The notes below the pieces were generated by a model. It had not been told where the DNA came from, did no database searches, and saw nothing but the letters and a program-made list of their open reading frames with translations. Below are positions 19,145-26,974 of a DNA stretch of 33,606 nucleotides, one piece after another. The first letter of the stretch is position 1. Each line of letters begins with the position of its first letter. The position numbers and the translations under genes were made by a program. The stretch lies in NCBI GenBank assembly GCA_016212295.1, contig JACRGO010000214.1:1-33606 (forward strand). Reading direction: 5' to 3'. The DNA is from Nitrospinota bacterium. Lineage in GTDB: Bacteria; Nitrospinota; Nitrospinia; JACRGO01.

Positions 19145-19470
19145 TTAATTTTTTTCTCCCCAAAAAGTTATTTTGTAAATGTGAAAAAACATTTTAACAT
19201 TTAATCCAATGAACCAAAAGGGGGGCGTGTTTTTTAGGGGGCGAAGGGTGATAGTGGATAGAGGGCAGGAAGATTAATACTAACAAAAAATATTTTAAAT
19301 TTCAGATTGCGGATTTCAGATTGGAAGAATATAAAAACAAAATATCCTGTGCATCCTGTCTATCCCTGTTAAATTTTTTTTGGCAGGGATGTACAAGATA
19401 GGCATGATAAAGATGAAAAGAAAAACCTGCCACAAATCTGAAATCTGAAATCACAAATCCAGAATTAATT
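19145..19470. other. Spacer holding nested palindromes, no gene
   Basis: Between the cohesin-dockerin gene and the inositol-phosphate synthase gene I see no coding potential. Outer arms made of TTTCAGATT words (19297-19324) face ATCTGAAATC words (19431-19460). Inside are inner arms: ATCCTGTGCATCCTGTCTAT from 19343 and GGCAGGGATGTACAAGATAG from 19382. The 19145-19260 part is A/T- and then G-rich and may hold the promoter of the synthase gene. Confidence 0.7.
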
Positions 19471-20973
19471 TCATCTTACCCGGATGGAGGATGAGGATTT
19501 TTTAATTGCGATGTTCAGGTCCGAGCGTTGAAACTCCTTCCCATGAAAATCATATAGCTTCACGTCAGCCAGCCTGATAATGGCGGTCCCCTTTTTCAGG
19601 GGCGTGAACTTCAGGGCGCCCAGGGAGACCGGTTTCGAGATTGTAACGACCTTTCCCTCCCTGGCCGCGCACACGGCTTCCACGGACCCCTTGCCGGTCT
19701 TTTTTTCGTTGACTTCGCAGGCAAAATCCGTTCCCATGCCCTGGCCCGCGGCAAAATCCGAAAACCTGGCCATCTCCGGATCATAGGTTATCTTGAAATA
19801 AAAAGAGGCGGTCTTGTCCGGGTTGTTGATCTGGAGGCCTGCGGCGCAATCGCCGGAGTCCAGGCCGCACCCGTCTCCTTTCAGGGAAACTTTTCTGGGA
19901 GAATTTTTTTCCAGCCGCCGCAGGGACCGCCTCAATTTTCCCTCATAGGATTTGGGATTGATGTCCGGCGGCCATGCCTGATTGACAATCCAGTAGAGGA
20001 TGGAGTGCCCGTCGTTGGCCCCAATCTCTCCGTCTCCCTCGATATCTCCAGCGTCGATTTGTTTTTTAGATGGGACCGCCTTGTGATCGGCGAACACCAT
20101 GGCGGACGAGGCGTCGTTGGCCAGGACCGCCGTGTCCCCGGTCACGTCGCCCAGCCGGTAGTCGCCTCCAACCGTCACCTTGCCGTCGATAAGATTCAGA
20201 TCAACCTCCTTGAAAGGGTCGGTCTCGCTTTTTACCCAGAGAGTTGTGCCCTTGATGGCCGCAGTGTCCGCCTTGACGAATTGGATAGGGGCTTTATGGC
20301 TGACAGCCGCGTCCTTCTTGATTTTTACCTCCAGACTCAGGAAACGCCCCTCCCCCTTAAGGGCAGCCCCAGGCCCGGACACATAACTGATGACGACGTA
20401 TGGCGGAGAGATGTTGGCGCTCCAGATAAAGTCCCATGTAAGAAGGGTCTCCTTCACCTTCACTATCTCCATGAGGTCAGGATCGTATTGAAGGACTAGG
20501 TCTCCAGCGCTCAGGATAAGGTTGTCCGCGTTTTGCAGGTTGAGCGGAATAGTGACGGTTTCACCGGGCTCCCCATAAACCGCGGGGATGAAGAAAGAGA
20601 GGCGGCCGGACAAGGCCCATGCCTTTTTGGAAAAATTGCCTTTCAATTTTTTGTTGCCGGAAACCGCCTTCACCTTATAATAATAGACCTTGTTTTCATT
20701 AATGCCATTGGTGTCTAGGTAAAAGGTGTTATCAACCGTCTTCTTGTTGATCTTCCTGTAATTTCCTCGAGGCGAGCCGGAGCGGTAAACATCGTATCCG
20801 ATGGTCCTGAAATCATCGCTGGCCTCCCATTTCAATTCTATGTCCGATACCCCGCCCTGGGCGTGGAGATTGTCCGGCCCCGCGATGGCGGCGCTTGGCT
20901 TCGCCTCAGCGTGAAGAAAGGAAAAAAGGCAAAGAAGAATGCCTGACAGGATTTTAGATAGGTTTTTCGTCAT
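19471..20973 (-). CDS. Secreted FN3 / cohesin-like / dockerin protein
   Basis: About 500 residues. Signal peptide (MTKNLSKILSGILLCLF...AEA); a fibronectin type III domain (about 30-125; WEASDDF, GYDVYRS, YYYKVKAV); a cohesin-like beta domain (about 130-265; GETVTIPLNLQNADN, LVLQYDPDLMEIV); a dockerin module (about 270-330) with two calcium loops DVTGDTAVLAND and DIEGDGEIGAND; then a second cohesin-like region (about 365-490; YFKITYDPEMARFSDF). Two Cys pairs occur in the C-terminal part. Cohesin-dockerin contacts build cellulosomes, but such modules also occur in proteins unrelated to cellulose; no catalytic domain is visible. ATG 20973 is preferred; 20994 lies in repeat sequence. Its neighbour upstream has the same module order. 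Confidence 0.85.
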   Translation of the reverse strand: MTKNLSKILSGILLCLFSFLHAEAKPSAAIAGPDNLHAQGGVSDIELKWEASDDFRTIGYDVYRSGSPRGNYRKINKKTVDNTFYLDTNGINENKVYYYKVKAVSGNKKLKGNFSKKAWALSGRLSFFIPAVYGEPGETVTIPLNLQNADNLILSAGDLVLQYDPDLMEIVKVKETLLTWDFIWSANISPPYVVISYVSGPGAALKGEGRFLSLEVKIKKDAAVSHKAPIQFVKADTAAIKGTTLWVKSETDPFKEVDLNLIDGKVTVGGDYRLGDVTGDTAVLANDASSAMVFADHKAVPSKKQIDAGDIEGDGEIGANDGHSILYWIVNQAWPPDINPKSYEGKLRRSLRRLEKNSPRKVSLKGDGCGLDSGDCAAGLQINNPDKTASFYFKITYDPEMARFSDFAAGQGMGTDFACEVNEKKTGKGSVEAVCAAREGKVVTISKPVSLGALKFTPLKKGTAIIRLADVKLYDFHGKEFQRSDLNIAIKKSSSSIRVR

Positions 20974-21000
20974 TCGTGGATCGTCATGTGTCATGTGTCA

Positions 21001-21095
21001 TAAGTCATGTGTCAGGGGGCAGTTTTCAGTTGTCAGTTTCCAGTTTTCAGTTGGCATTCGTCATTTACCTGTCAACCGTCAACCGTCAACTGCCT
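21001..21095. repeat. Low-complexity GTCAG/TTTTCAGTTG word repeats
   Basis: Degenerate copies of CAGTTTTCAGTTGTCAG and TCAACCGTCAACCGTCAAC fill the spacer between the two cohesin-dockerin genes. The same class appears at 24811-24960, 25571-25625 and, in short form, near 1343-1363 and 10231-10260. Confidence 0.7.
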
Positions 21096-21099
21096 TTAT

Positions 21100-24000
21100 C
21101 TACTTCCCCGCTCCCACGCTCCCATCGCCTTTAATGACCTGGTATTGCGTTGAAAGATTGCCGCCCAATACGTCGAACAGGTCGAATGCCTTCAGGGAAA
21201 CAGCGGCGGGTTTTCTTTGCATCCTGGAGAAATCCTTCACCTTGAAATAAAAGACGCCAAGCTCATGGTATCCCTTGGTCTTCTTGTCCTTGTTCTCCTT
21301 GGCCGCGAACCCCTTTCCAGTGGAAAGGGCAAAGGAGATTTTTCCCTTATCGCCCTTGTCATTGGCCCTTATAAGGAATTGGTCGTTCTTGTCCGCCAGG
21401 ACAAGCGATTTGTTGGCGCTCTCAACGGTCGCGTTTTTGTCAAAGGACAGGATGTTCTTGTCGTATCGCAACTCCCCCTGCATCGTCACCATGCTCCTTA
21501 ACTGGTCGATTCCAAGTGAGATCCCTACCTTTTCCCCCTGTTTCACGGCTGTGGCGGAACCCAGGCGCGCGATGATTTTCTGTTTCTTCGCGTTTGCCTC
21601 CTTACGTGCAAGCATTTTTCTCTCCAGCGCGGAACTGGAAGTGGCGCCGGGAAAATAGTCCTCAAGGATGTGGTAGAGAATCTTGCCCACGTCATTGGCC
21701 TTGATCCCCTTGCTGCCGTCTATGTCCGCGGCCGCGAGTTCCGTGTTGGAGGGGTCATTTTCATAAACTGAAAACTTTATAGTCTTGACCGCGTCATTAA
21801 TGTCAATGGAATTGTCCCGGTTAACGTCCCCCAGCTTGTTCTCCACCACCCGCAAGGTCCCGCTCTGGACGTTCAGTTCCACCGGATTGCCGTTGGGGTC
21901 AGAGACCTTGGTGAAAGCCGGGTCAATTGTCAGGGCGATCTCTTCCCCCAGGGGCAGGCCCTGGGCCACGTTGAAATAGATGTAAAAAATATTCCCGCCC
22001 GTGCTCAGGGGCTTGCTTTTGGTGTCCAGAATAACGGCACGCGTGTCCCCCGCGGCCACGTCGCTGGAATAGCTCCATCCGAACTCCTCCACTATGTCCG
22101 CCTTTTCCACCTTGGTGGCGGCCAGCTTAGCCGGATCATGGGAGACCCTGAACTGCAGGCCGGACAGCTTCAGTCCCTCGGCGTTAAGCAATTTAATCGG
22201 GCATTTATAAATCGAGGCGGCCCCGGCCCCGGAAATGATCTCCGCGTCATAAATGGCAAGGCCCAGGACGCCGACCACCGCCTCCTCTATATTGCTCACC
22301 GCGCTTGTCTTGCTGCTCCCGTAAACCGCCGCCACCCCGAAGTAGAGATGGCTCCTCTTCGCGTCCGTGGAATAGGCGTAAGCCGGCTCCGCGGCAGTGC
22401 CCACAAGGGCCGCCTGGCTGAAATCGCTGTTCCTGCTCATGTAAATTTGGTATCCACTGATGGTGGTGGCATGGGAGGGGGAATCCCACGAGAGGAACAC
22501 GGTCCCCCCGCTCACAACCGCCTTCAGGTTCTTGGGCGTGGGGTCGAGCACGATATAATCCCCGCTGCTGGACACAATAAGATTGGCGGCGATGTTCCGG
22601 ATCGATACCTTGCCCGCGGCCGCACCGCCAGGGACCACCACATTGACATAGCCCGCGTAGGCGTCGGCTTTGGAAGAAAGGGTCCTGGCCACGATCCCGT
22701 TGAACGTAACCTCGTTCAGGGAATAGTCAGCGTTCAGGAAATCCCCCTCCGTGTAAATCGTCAGTTCCTCTCCCGAAAGGGCGGCCTCCCGCGAGAAACC
22801 GGTAATGATCGCGGTCCGGACTATATGGAAAGATTGAGTGGACTCAGCCGCGCCGCCGCTGGTTGTTACGGAGACCTTGCCGTCCGGGGCGTCGGACGGC
22901 ACAAGGGCGTAAATATAATCCGAGGAAGAGGCGGAGTGGGAGACAGCCTCAACGGCTGCCTGGGTCCCGCCTATCTTCACGGTGACGTCTTCCTTGAGGC
23001 TGCTGAAATTCCTGCCGTTAATGGTGAGGCGGCCTCCGGGCTTTTCGCACGGAGTGTTGTTGGAGCAGGTTTTGGCCGTTATGCCGGTGATTTCCGGCTT
23101 CAGCACGGAAAATTGGGCGGTGGAGGAAATGACGCCGCCGCCGGAGTTGACCGTGAACGCGCCGGACCTGGCCCCCCTGCCTATGGTTGCCGTTATATAA
23201 TCCGTGGAACCGGAGTCGGAACAGGAGGTCACAGGACAATTCTCTCCGCTAAGGGAGACGGTGGTGGAGGAGCACTCCCAATTGCCCCCGCTGATCTTCA
23301 CGCTGTCCCCCACAACCCCGCTTGAAGGGTAAAAGGTGGAGAGCGTGATCGGCCTTGTCAGGGTGAAACTCCCGGTGATCTCGGCCGTGCTTCCATAGCT
23401 GTTCGTAACAGTCAGGGTATAGGAATAGGTCCCGGCAGTCCAGCCTGTCGAGTACGTGGAAGTGGCAAAGGAGCCGGTTTTGGACGCGGAGGTCCCGCTT
23501 AGGGTCCAGGAATTGGTGTGCTTGGAATTTCCCGCGCTGTCCGTGACCTTGAAGCTCATGGACGAGACGGAAGCATTGGCGCCCCCGGAACTCGCGGATA
23601 CGGTATAGGAAACCGTGTCCCCGACTGAGTAAGAGGCGCTGATCCCGGCCACGCTCCCTGTGGGTTTAACTGCTTCAGGTCCTACTCTAATTTTGTATAT
23701 ATTGAACCTACTATCCGTGGAATACCAAAGATAATTACCATCCCATTCCAACACTTTATGTTCAAAAGTGTTGACTCTCATCAGTTCTAAACTATCAAAA
23801 TCTATATATGCTTGTTTAATTCCATCCTTTGTATATGTATATATTCTGTTATAAGCCTCAAATGAATCTCCAATTAAGAGATTAGTACCATCATAACTTA
23901 TCCCAGTTGGGTGTCCAAAAAAACCTCCAGAAAAAAATAATATCTGCTTACCTGAGCTATCATGCTTATGAATATCTCCAGAATTATAATCACCAACCCA

Positions 24001-24417
24001 AAAAAAACTTCCATCCCACGTAACTCCGCTTCCTGGCCAATATCCTATAGGTAACGTCTTTACAATTTGTCCACAATTCTGACCTGTATCAATAGCTACG
24101 AGTGAGCCTGTGAATGAATCTTCGAGAGCCCATAAATTACTTCCATCCCATGTAAGGTCAGAAATATGGAACGTAACTGTACATGACTTTAATACTTTTC
24201 CATTCGTGTCAAGTTGATAAAGGTTGTTTAAGTTGTCTACCATCCACAATGATGCACCGTCCCATGCGAGTCCAGTTGGACTACCTCCTGGAACACGAAA
24301 TGAAGCTGTTATTGCGGCACCTATTTCCACAGAAGCAAAAGATAGACTCGAAATGCCCAAACAGAAAACAATAGCAAACATAAATGCTCTTATTTCTTTA
24401 CCGTAGGCCCTTACCAT
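21100..24417 (-). CDS. Large secreted propeller / IPT-TIG / FN3 / cohesin-like / dockerin protein
   Basis: A 1,105-residue exported protein. In order: signal peptide (MVRAYGKEIRAFMFAIVFCL...SFA); a beta-propeller-like region (about 36-245) of at least five repeats of the form GLxWDGxxLW; an Ig/PKD-like domain (250-355); three IPT/TIG-type domains (about 360-635); FN3 (636-725); cohesin-like domain (about 726-860); dockerin (860-915) with loops DVNRDNSIDIND and DIDGSKGIKAND; and a C-terminal cohesin-like domain (about 940-1105; GEKVGISLGIDQL, LRYDKNILSF). AAGGAGG seven bases before ATG 24417 sets the start; ATG 24453 is also possible. Codons before about 23680 (the propeller part) are distinctly AT-rich compared with the rest, suggesting a swapped-in 5' module. 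Likely a surface scaffold or adhesin (inference). Confidence 0.85.
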   Translation of the reverse strand: MVRAYGKEIRAFMFAIVFCLGISSLSFASVEIGAAITASFRVPGGSPTGLAWDGASLWMVDNLNNLYQLDTNGKVLKSCTVTFHISDLTWDGSNLWALEDSFTGSLVAIDTGQNCGQIVKTLPIGYWPGSGVTWDGSFFWVGDYNSGDIHKHDSSGKQILFFSGGFFGHPTGISYDGTNLLIGDSFEAYNRIYTYTKDGIKQAYIDFDSLELMRVNTFEHKVLEWDGNYLWYSTDSRFNIYKIRVGPEAVKPTGSVAGISASYSVGDTVSYTVSASSGGANASVSSMSFKVTDSAGNSKHTNSWTLSGTSASKTGSFATSTYSTGWTAGTYSYTLTVTNSYGSTAEITGSFTLTRPITLSTFYPSSGVVGDSVKISGGNWECSSTTVSLSGENCPVTSCSDSGSTDYITATIGRGARSGAFTVNSGGGVISSTAQFSVLKPEITGITAKTCSNNTPCEKPGGRLTINGRNFSSLKEDVTVKIGGTQAAVEAVSHSASSSDYIYALVPSDAPDGKVSVTTSGGAAESTQSFHIVRTAIITGFSREAALSGEELTIYTEGDFLNADYSLNEVTFNGIVARTLSSKADAYAGYVNVVVPGGAAAGKVSIRNIAANLIVSSSGDYIVLDPTPKNLKAVVSGGTVFLSWDSPSHATTISGYQIYMSRNSDFSQAALVGTAAEPAYAYSTDAKRSHLYFGVAAVYGSSKTSAVSNIEEAVVGVLGLAIYDAEIISGAGAASIYKCPIKLLNAEGLKLSGLQFRVSHDPAKLAATKVEKADIVEEFGWSYSSDVAAGDTRAVILDTKSKPLSTGGNIFYIYFNVAQGLPLGEEIALTIDPAFTKVSDPNGNPVELNVQSGTLRVVENKLGDVNRDNSIDINDAVKTIKFSVYENDPSNTELAAADIDGSKGIKANDVGKILYHILEDYFPGATSSSALERKMLARKEANAKKQKIIARLGSATAVKQGEKVGISLGIDQLRSMVTMQGELRYDKNILSFDKNATVESANKSLVLADKNDQFLIRANDKGDKGKISFALSTGKGFAAKENKDKKTKGYHELGVFYFKVKDFSRMQRKPAAVSLKAFDLFDVLGGNLSTQYQVIKGDGSVGAGK

Positions 24418-24449
24418 GGGGAAGCCTCCTTCTTGTGTATTTGCTCCGC

Positions 24450-24779
24450 TCATAGCCCTTCCTTTCTCCCTGCTGCTGGATAAGAAATTCCTATGGGGGT
24501 TATCTGGTTTCTACTCTCAGTCTTCAGGGCCAAGTTGTTATAATATCCAGCCGCCACTGCCGCAACACCCGTGAGGCCGCTAACCTGTGCCGGGGTATAT
24601 CTGGTTGTGCCGGTCCCGTCTCCCAACTGGCCTCGAGTGTTATATCCCCAAGCCCAGACCGTGCCGTCTGTCTTCACCGCCAGGCTGTAATTGCTTCCAG
24701 CCGACACCTGCTTCACGGCCGCGGCTTCTGAAACACCGGCCCTGGCGAACCCAAGCCAGAAAAAAAGCGCCAAAATCAT
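24450..24779 (-). pseudogene. Truncated RCC1-repeat secreted protein
   Basis: The first 85 or so residues carry a signal-like hydrophobic run (ILALFFWLGFARA) and one and a third RCC1 repeats (SAGSNYSLAVKTDGTVWAWG, then GQLGDGTGTTRYTPAQVSG, and AAGYYNNLALKT). At about 24518 homology stops mid-repeat, where DGTVWAWG should follow, and 20 unrelated residues run to a stop overlapping (ATGA) an ATG of the next gene. The best-placed start, seven bases after AAGGA at 24805-24809, is ATA (24795-24797) rather than ATG; reading from there would give a canonical MRKTA-type signal peptide. The present ATG 24779 has no basic n-region. I read it as the displaced front end of the gene downstream. Confidence 0.7.
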
Positions 24780-24810
24780 AATCGCGGTTTTTCTTATGAC
24801 TTGGTCCTTT

Positions 24811-24960
24811 CAGAAGCAGGTGTCAGGGATCAGGTGCCAGGGGGCAGTTTCCAGTTACCGGTTGTCAGAGGGCAATTGTCATTGGTCATTCGTCATGGTC
24901 AATTGTCATTGGTCAATTGTCATTGGTACTTCGTGATTCGTCAATGGTCAAACAAACGGG
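24811..24960. repeat. Low-complexity CAATTGTCATTGGTC word repeats
   Basis: Degenerate short words (CAGGTGTCAGGG, CAGTTTCCAGTTACCGG, then three copies of CAATTGTCATTGGT) occupy the spacer before the RCC1 remnant. No gene is seen from here to 25022. Confidence 0.7.
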
Positions 24961-25022
24961 TTGACGATGAGCAAACGCCCCATAATCTCCTGTCTGTTCC
25001 GCATATAGTGTCGATAAATATC

Positions 25023-25241
25023 TTACCTGGAATTGGCATCGTCCCGGTCAAATTTATATTCGCTGACGTCCACCTTGAAGCTTCGGAAGAAAGTTTCTAT
25101 TTCATCGGCGGTTCTGGGGGCTGGCGCAAGCTCGGATGGCAACTGCTTCACCTTGAGGAAGGCAATGAAATCCAGCAACTCAGCCTGCCTTCCGGGAGGC
25201 AGTGTTTCAACTTCATGTGCGATGATTTCGGAATATTCCAT
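25023..25241 (-). CDS. DUF2281 family protein (VapB-like antitoxin)
   Basis: A 72-residue protein with the DUF2281 pattern: an N-terminal helix followed by ETLPPGRQAELLDFIAFLK, then an acidic tail. Such proteins are usually antitoxins next to PIN-domain toxins. No PIN toxin gene follows in this direction: downstream are only repeats and the RCC1 remnant, so it is an orphan. AGGAG about nine bases before ATG 25241 gives a clear start. The family call is good, the antitoxin role inferred. Confidence 0.8.
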   Translation of the reverse strand: MEYSEIIAHEVETLPPGRQAELLDFIAFLKVKQLPSELAPAPRTADEIETFFRSFKVDVSEYKFDRDDANSR

Positions 25242-25323
25242 GTGCGCGTCTCCTGCTAATCAGTCTAATTTTAACAACAATAAGGAATGGATATCAAACC
25301 TTGATTTTTGCAATCCGCTGCTT

Positions 25324-25371
25324 GGGATTACAAATCCCGAAGGTCCGGCATCGCGGATTACAAATCCGCGA
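25324..25371. repeat. Two small hairpins with 3-base loops
   Basis: GGGATT-ACA-AATCCC at 25324-25338, and the perfect 9-bp stem TCGCGGATT-ACA-AATCCGCGA at 25351-25371. They end nine bases from the end of the truncated DUF1566 gene. Relatives lie at 25652-25666, 26539-26569, 26621-26640 (half) and 30648-30678. Confidence 0.8.
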
Positions 25372-25379
25372 CGTGCAAA

Positions 25380-25556
25380 TTAGACGAGGCCGCCTTGCCA
25401 ATTGACTCTGCCAAGACACCCGGCGTCCTTGGGCCACATAAGGCCGGTCCGGGTATCCGTGATTGTGCCGTCCACGTTGTCCGTGAACCTCCCCGCGTGC
25501 GCCGCGCCCGCGCAAAACAAAACAGCCGCTAATATTAAAGGCAGTATTCTTTTCAT
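25380..25556 (-). pseudogene. Truncated DUF1566 (Lcl C-terminal-like) secreted protein
   Basis: A good start (GAGGAAAA before ATG 25556) and signal peptide (MKRILPLILAAVLFCAGAAHA) lead into RFTDNVDGTITDTRTGLMWP, the opening of the DUF1566 domain, then KDAGCLGRVNWQGG. The frame then ends after 58 residues, where intact members go on for another 100 or more. The stop lies next to the hairpin pair at 25324-25371, which suggests loss of the 3' part by repeat-linked recombination. A short secreted peptide could still be made. Confidence 0.75.
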
Positions 25557-25651
25557 GACTTTTTTCCTCGGACAGGGCAATTGTGAATCGTCGTTCGTAC
25601 TTCGTCAATCGTACTTCGTATTTTGTCATTTATTGTAACGCACCTTCCACC

Positions 25652-25666
25652 CGGATTTGCAATCCG
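25652..25666. repeat. Small hairpin CGGATT-TGC-AATCCG
   Basis: Six-base perfect stem and TGC loop; its right flank (CGGCGAGCGA) recurs nearly unchanged at 26631-26640. Confidence 0.65.
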
Positions 25667-25699
25667 CGGCGAGCGAAAAAAACATTATCATCAGGCCAT

Positions 25700-26179
25700 C
25701 TATTCTCCGGCTTCATGAGCGGATGCTTCTACGATATTGGCATGTATCCAGTACCCATTCTGTTTCAGCTCACCAAACAACTCTCTAACGGAGTGAATCA
25801 TCCCCATTTTCTTTGCGTCAACAAGCACACGGGCAGTGCCGATCACCGCAAGATTGTAGACATTGCGGGCCACTTTGCGCCCCTTGCGCTCGTCAATGAG
25901 GACGGTATCCGCTGAAATCTGCCGGGCAAGCTGAATCACAGCCGCCTCACCCTTGTCCAGAATGCTCAACAACAAAGGATCCGCGGGTGGCTGCGCCATT
26001 TTGACTTCAAGCCATGCGGGCTTGGCCATACGTCGCGCTTCAAATGATGACGCGATCAACTCCGCGTAAACTTCCGATGGAATGATAACATGGCTGAACA
26101 ATTCGGGAAGCAGGTTCAACCGGCCAATCATAGATAGCGCAATGAGCGGCCCGGTGTTAGAAACCAGGACATCTTTCAT
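25700..26179 (-). CDS. DUF3368 PIN-like toxin
   Basis: From ATG 26179 the protein has 159 residues. The DUF3368 family is a PIN-fold nuclease relative: VLVSNTGPLIALSMIG holds the first acidic-site region (with Asn-Thr-Gly-Pro), PSEVYAEL the second, LDKGEAAVIQLA the third and VLIDERKGRKVA the last acidic residue. It should be an RNase toxin acting in the cytoplasm. Its ATG overlaps the antitoxin stop by four bases (ATGA), typical of toxin-antitoxin operons. In-frame codons up to 26221 lie within the antitoxin gene and are not family-like. Confidence 0.88.
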   Translation of the reverse strand: MKDVLVSNTGPLIALSMIGRLNLLPELFSHVIIPSEVYAELIASSFEARRMAKPAWLEVKMAQPPADPLLLSILDKGEAAVIQLARQISADTVLIDERKGRKVARNVYNLAVIGTARVLVDAKKMGMIHSVRELFGELKQNGYWIHANIVEASAHEAGE

Positions 26180-26430
26180 GGTTGCACCGGAAATTCGCCG
26201 GCCAATTCCTCGTCGTCCCATTGCACGGAAGGCGCTCCGAATTTATGGCAGTCAAGTAGAAAATCAACGCGAGACACACCGGCCATTTCCGAAGCCTGCC
26301 CGGATGTCAGGCGGCCAAGCTCGAACAATTTTACCGCCATTGCTTTTCTGGCCTCACTCTCAAACTCGAACCGGCTCGCATTCAATGCGGCAAGAAGCGA
26401 ATCATTATATGGTATGCATAGAGTGCTCAT
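26176..26430 (-). CDS. UPF0175 family antitoxin
   Basis: An 84-residue protein of the UPF0175 family: a basic, helical N-terminal half (ESEARKAMAVKLFELGRLTS) followed by a helix-turn-helix-like GQASEMAGVSRVDFLLDCHKF and an acidic C-terminus. The family is regularly the antitoxin partner of DUF3368 toxins. GGGAGGT, seven bases before ATG 26430, sets the start; the longer frame to 26463 is not needed. It probably binds its own promoter (inference from the family), in the spacer beyond 26430. Confidence 0.88.
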   Translation of the reverse strand: MSTLCIPYNDSLLAALNASRFEFESEARKAMAVKLFELGRLTSGQASEMAGVSRVDFLLDCHKFGAPSVQWDDEELAGEFPVQP

Positions 26431-26974
26431 GTTAATTACCTCCCTACATCGCCTGATGAACAATTGGGGACAACCCCCGGTTTCCGCGCCGGTCCGTTGT
26501 CAAGCCAAACGCGGCCCATACACCGTCCCATTATTTGCGCTCGTTGCAGGTTTGCAACCTGCAACGAGCCTTCCAGCGTTATCGGCATATTTGTCTCCCT
26601 TGCATGGTTTTTTAAATATTTTGCAATCCGCGGCGTGTGAACCTTAATCAACTGGATGCGCGGGATGGGTTAGTTTTAAAGGCAAACTAAAAATTTTTTG
26701 CCCCATAAATCTTAGTAGAAAGGTGTATGAAAGTCAAAAAAAGGCTCAAAATTGCTCAAATGGTATTTCCTGATAACTGCCCCCTGGCAACTGTGAACGG
26801 AATTTAGGAAGTGGAAACAATTATTGATTTTGGTGTACACTAAACGGCGTAGAAATTTTATTCTGACATGGGATGCCTTTTTTTTATCTATTGAATTTTA
26901 AAGGACTTAGGTGATGGCATTTAAATTGCTGATAGATTCTCGCCTGTATTTTTATCTATTTTGAGGAAAGAGGA
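26431..26974. other. 544-bp divergent spacer, no convincing gene
   Basis: Between the antitoxin (minus) and the glutamate synthase FMN subunit (plus). It holds a perfect hairpin (26539-26569), a half-repeat (26621-26640) and AT-rich sequence after 26690 where the promoter of the glutamate synthase set is expected, though no clear -35/-10 pair was found. A 71-codon open frame at 26436-26651 on minus crosses the hairpin and resembles nothing I know. Confidence 0.6.
26539..26569. repeat. Perfect 14-bp hairpin with TGC loop
   Basis: GCTCGTTGCAGGTT at 26539-26552 and AACCTGCAACGAGC at 26556-26569. The core GGTTTGCAACC differs by one base from the core of the hairpin at 30648-30678, while the outer stems differ completely yet still pair. 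Confidence 0.85.

Follow-up and report, generated by a model that had tools for sequence, protein, structure and literature searches.

The locus raises the question of how a single gene for a modular surface protein came to be written in two different compositions, and whether its front end took the place of an older one. The window, meaning the whole stretch of 33,606 nucleotides from a Nitrospinota bacterium that was analysed, carries on its minus strand a gene whose 5' codons are AT-rich and whose remainder is GC-richer. The gene was very probably assembled horizontally, a foreign AT-rich propeller segment having been combined with a native GC-richer body; it lies in an accessory block with no counterpart in the sister species. 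The parts of the locus, in window coordinates, are as follows.

19145-26914, no strand: accessory block between the myo-inositol-1-phosphate synthase gene and a split glutamate synthase operon; the same-genus genome G001 does not have it
19471-20994, minus strand: neighbouring FN3-cohesin-dockerin-like gene of the same block
21100-24417, minus strand: mosaic gene, 1105 amino acids from ATG 24417, with signal peptide, five-bladed propeller, Ig-like module, TIG repeats, FN3, cohesin, dockerin-like segment and a second cohesin-like region
21688-21834, minus strand: dockerin-like duplicated DxNxD segment (PF00404, 20.2 bits, below the curated Pfam cut-off of 22.9)
21859-22206, minus strand: cohesin domain (PF00963, above the curated Pfam cut-off)
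22543-23349, minus strand: IPT/TIG domains (PF01833, two stretches)
23350-23664, minus strand: Ig-like module (PTGSV...), GC3 0.75, present in 6 copies in 4 genes of this genome
23655-23667, minus strand: composition breakpoint, lying where the Ig-like module begins and 8 residues beyond the last propeller homology
23689-24330, minus strand: AT-rich five-bladed beta-propeller, GC3 0.26, modelled by AlphaFold at pLDDT 94
24331-24417, minus strand: signal peptide (MVRAYGKEIRAFMFAIVFCLGISSLSFA), GC3 0.31, recognised by eye
24425-24430, minus strand: ribosome-binding site AGGAGG, 7 nt before ATG 24417, read from the sequence
24516-24797, minus strand: RCC1 remnant, a signal segment and about 1.5 RCC1 repeats, GC3 0.63, with ATA for the expected ATG
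24848-24951, no strand: interspersed repeat of 7/14-bp period on the upstream side of the RCC1 remnant, with a direct copy at 20939-21064
25380-25556, minus strand: another apparent 5' remnant, a signal peptide and the beginning of what we take from its motif to be a DUF1566-like domain, without a Pfam match

Translation of the mosaic gene likely starts at ATG 24417, behind the AGGAGG and 12 codons inside the listed open reading frame. The propeller then spans residues 30-243 of the protein, followed by an 8-residue linker and the Ig-like module. Third-position GC content rises from 0.25 over codons 1-251 to 0.74 over the remainder, in agreement with the initial annotation, which had described AT-rich codons from about 23680 to the start. 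A changepoint analysis of GC3 finds one sharp step, best placed at 23664 with a 2-log-unit range of 23655-23667. Its log-likelihood ratio is 96, whereas none of 300 randomisations that shuffled blocks of 30 codons exceeded 31. Among the 55 long reading frames examined in loci read from this genome, on which the genome-level composition statistics are based, no other step is as large. The breakpoint coincides with the boundary between the propeller and the Ig-like module and the join is in frame; such a break, sharp, beyond chance and at a domain edge, is what marks an intragenic mosaic. Composition places the 5' limit of this AT-rich stretch best at 24400 but fixes it only loosely (24232-24550), so that the ribosome site and signal peptide are not assignable to this segment from composition alone.

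The propeller has no Pfam match at E values up to 1. A single-sequence structure model of it reached a pLDDT of 52 and was superseded by an AlphaFold model built with a 33-sequence alignment (pLDDT 94), which displays five four-stranded blades with an N-terminal strand closing the last one. Its best solved structural matches are the five-bladed glutaminyl cyclases (PDB 3mbr, 2iwa, 3nok and 3nol; TM-score 0.77-0.79), which share the blade number and the N-terminal strand closure, and the predicted fold of the window propeller is thus glutaminyl-cyclase-like. Unlike these enzymes, the propeller forms part of a large modular protein, and it is 12-16% identical to them in sequence. Cyclase function is not claimed for it, because the structural matches are only 16% identical at most and no Pfam family is found by sequence. 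It is better described as a putative ligand-binding head on a surface scaffold bearing cohesin and dockerin.

The relatives of the propeller point outside the phylum. A search of the phylum's other 76 genomes, that of the same genus among them, found no homologue. Across other phyla the fold family is widespread (20 of 387 genomes at E up to 1e-6, a count that takes in the genome of the window itself). The genome-wide scan returned one close relative, the N-terminal propeller of a protein (L147) from the Betaproteobacteria MAG RIFCSPLOWO2_02_FULL_65_20 (MEQZ01000241), at 70% identity; the next, from a member of the Neomarinimicrobiota, is 46% identical. In the tree the window propeller and L147 group together with support of 100/99, inside a five-member clade that spans five phyla and in which the partner domains differ in each member. 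A nearest relative in another phylum, with none among the phylum's own genomes, constitutes the phylogenetic incongruence by which an acquired domain is recognised. No close relative emerged from a full-protein contig scan of genomes, from viral and phage searches or from a PDB sequence search, and the plasmid search gave weak matches only, one of them annotated as a glutaminyl-peptide cyclotransferase.

The L147 protein is likewise secreted and modular, with lowered GC3 in its propeller, but there the propeller is followed by InlB-B, Big_2 and RCC1 repeats in place of the TIG, FN3 and cohesin of the window gene. Homology between the two stops at the residues IYKI, eight residues ahead of the composition break, and no relationship is recognisable between their signal peptides (score 6 over 24 residues). 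L147 comes from another phylum and the domains behind its propeller are unrelated to those of the window gene, so the 5' module is an exchanged one. The modular exchange envisaged by the initial annotation is therefore upheld, by foreign composition, an in-frame join at a domain edge and an other-phylum relative with unrelated partners.

At conserved residues, the window gene and L147 use identical codons at a frequency of 0.386 against 0.296 by chance (p 0.0015), and identity at four-fold sites is 0.44 against 0.24, indicating an ancestry too recent for the synonymous signal to have been erased. Across 75 homologous genes the propeller GC3 minus gene GC3 averages +0.02 (sd 0.05) with a minimum of -0.15, which belongs to L147 and is modestly significant in that gene (p 0.016); the window propeller lies about 0.49 below its gene body, L147 being next lowest. 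A close copy of the propeller was found in 1 of 300 sampled genomes of L147's order, namely L147's own. The best match is a GC-rich Betaproteobacterium that resembles another recipient, and no donor was found; a donor of matching composition would be supporting evidence for the acquisition and not a requirement. The window gene and L147 both look like recipients of a propeller from another source, and the low GC3 observed here suggests that the donor was an AT-rich bacterium.

More distant homologues often precede an apparent transglutaminase-like domain, named by eye. These WDG-repeat propellers, from Zixibacteria, Bacteroidales, Aminicenantes and others, share the GLxWDGxxLW repeat, five blades, secretion and an N-terminal position, and differ from the window propeller in their identity to it of about 30%, in their partner domain and in their native composition. 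One further protein (L144, genome G133) consists of a signal peptide and a WDG propeller with an apparent dockerin, again recognised by eye, at its end, an independent combination of propeller and dockerin.

In G001, some 570 bp of intergenic DNA separate the inositol phosphate synthase gene from the glutamate synthase operon; here the interval is nearly 8 kb, occupied by a 7.8-kb block holding two cohesin genes, the RCC1 stub, the DUF1566-like stub and genes for DUF2281, UPF0175 and DUF3368. The UPF0175 and DUF3368 genes are adjacent (25703-26430, minus strand) and have the appearance of a toxin-antitoxin-like pair. G001 has neither an RCC1 match nor an Ig-like module of this kind, and none of its sequences passes the cut-off for cohesin; absence of the block there could reflect gain here or loss in G001. 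A sigma-54-like site (TGGCAY-N5-TTGCT) before the split glutamate synthase operon is kept in both species (window 26915-26930; L070 1359-1374). Repeats of 7/14-bp period (GTCAWTG-like) are intergenic at both window positions and occur also at L052 5822-5850; similar short repeats recur in G001.

Directly upstream of the mosaic gene, the RCC1 fragment has the properties first ascribed to it, namely GC-richer codons (GC3 0.63), its own signal segment and an end within a repeat, put originally at about 24518; RCC1 similarity is lost after the residues ALKT, at about 24516. The stub starts with ATA, and the neighbouring stub has ATG at the equivalent place. The remnant may be either the old front end of the gene or an unrelated leftover. 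The second reading, to which we give slightly better than even chances, regards the stub as independent and the block as a turnover site of arriving and decaying surface and toxin-antitoxin-like genes, the propeller fusion having formed elsewhere or separately. It accords with the DUF1566-like stub and the isolated UPF0175/DUF3368 and DUF2281 genes in the same block, with the absence of the block from G001, and with the interspersed repeats that bracket stub and gene as direct copies, but the position and orientation of the stub, directly upstream of the gene, are suggestive and speak against it.

That the propeller cassette replaced an RCC1 front of the Ig/TIG/FN3/cohesin gene, leaving the RCC1 5' stub upstream, is a serious possibility that nevertheless falls short of even chances. 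The stub shares the strand of the gene, possesses a signal segment of its own and ends some 100 bp short of the new start codon, and its GC3 resembles that of the gene body more than that of the propeller; C156 in the same genome encodes an RCC1-FN3-cohesin protein, and the Ig-like module also occurs in two RCC1 array proteins (C197 and C169). In both of these, however, the Ig-like module precedes RCC1. Apart from C156, no cohesin gene that was read carries RCC1, the full-length RCC1 genes lack cohesin, and the block around the stub contains a further apparent remnant and is missing in the sister genome. The remainder of the RCC1 repeats, moreover, is absent 3' of the propeller. Simple insertion of a cassette into an RCC1 gene is thereby excluded, and any displacement would have to be a replacement. 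Of the proposal in the initial annotation that the propeller displaced an RCC1 front end, an ancestor with RCC1 ahead of FN3 and cohesin is thus conceivable from C156, and a former RCC1 front of the mosaic gene itself would be a conjecture, with no 3' remainder to bear it out.

The same genome contains five TIG-FN3-cohesin-dockerin-cohesin paralogues (C191, C18, C211, C156 and C214), which share the C-terminal architecture of the mosaic gene at 28-29% identity over approximately residues 581-945. They have neither propeller nor Ig-like module, and their N terminus consists of a signal peptide and TIG. At C156:24492-25511 (L237 1993-3012, plus strand) one RCC1 repeat behind a signal peptide leads directly into FN3, then into a cohesin-like region, called by likeness to the paralogues and not by a Pfam match, and a TIG-like end; this rearranged protein apparently lacks the first cohesin and the dockerin of its paralogues. 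A copy of the 7/14-bp-period repeat (L237 2465-2493) lies in frame in the coding linker before its cohesin-like region. At C33 (L043 4577-6016, minus strand) a LamG front is joined to the Ig-like module, and GC3 rises from 0.26 over the first 119 codons to 0.68, the second-largest step among the 55 frames (32.8, against its own block-shuffle maximum of 24.6). The switch falls inside the conserved LamG end (FNGI|FDDIRIYNRA), and C33 is weaker evidence because the frame lies near a contig end and is apparently 5'-truncated. With C33 and C156 taken into account, exchange of front ends in this protein family is likely; its repeated occurrence among these surface genes is a more novel reading, for which the two are only suggestive. 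A more specific scheme, in which this genome recurrently splices foreign AT-rich binding heads (here the propeller, in C33 the LamG domain) as well as RCC1 heads cut short onto one set of native bodies, favouring certain joints and aided by 7-bp-period repeats, is rather unlikely; were it true, such repeats between genes and within linkers would assist repeated head splicing.

An assembly chimera, or a composition imposed by the protein sequence, is a highly improbable source of the step. The genome is a MAG of 237 contigs, and MAG contigs may be misassembled, but the join is in frame, sits at a domain boundary and lies within a gene of 1105 codons; the step, for its part, sits in third codon positions, and homologous propellers in the 75 genes show no such bias. 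Least probable of all is phase-variable switching of a cassette at the 5' end, the phase-variation-like exchange of the initial annotation, which found no support: the paralogues do carry alternative front ends, but the search for the propeller cassette elsewhere in the genome found no second or silent copy, the joint has no inverted repeats, and no recombinase gene was noticed among the reading frames of the block, the small ones having been profiled in part.

Horizontal assembly thus remains the preferred account of the gene. A piece of AT-rich DNA of about 750 bases, encoding a secreted five-bladed propeller, would have arrived from a distant bacterium and been fused in frame to the native Ig-like, TIG, FN3, cohesin and dockerin-like domains, and the new head may have changed the binding target of the protein. 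On this account the unit that crossed from one phylum to another was a single domain and not a whole gene; the joint is resolved to within about 12 bases, and the sister species shows the recipient site in its empty state. The propeller would belong to a promiscuous subfamily, outside the Pfam models, that moves among unrelated surface proteins, and the locus would offer a view of how uncultivated bacteria swap the binding heads of their surface scaffolds.
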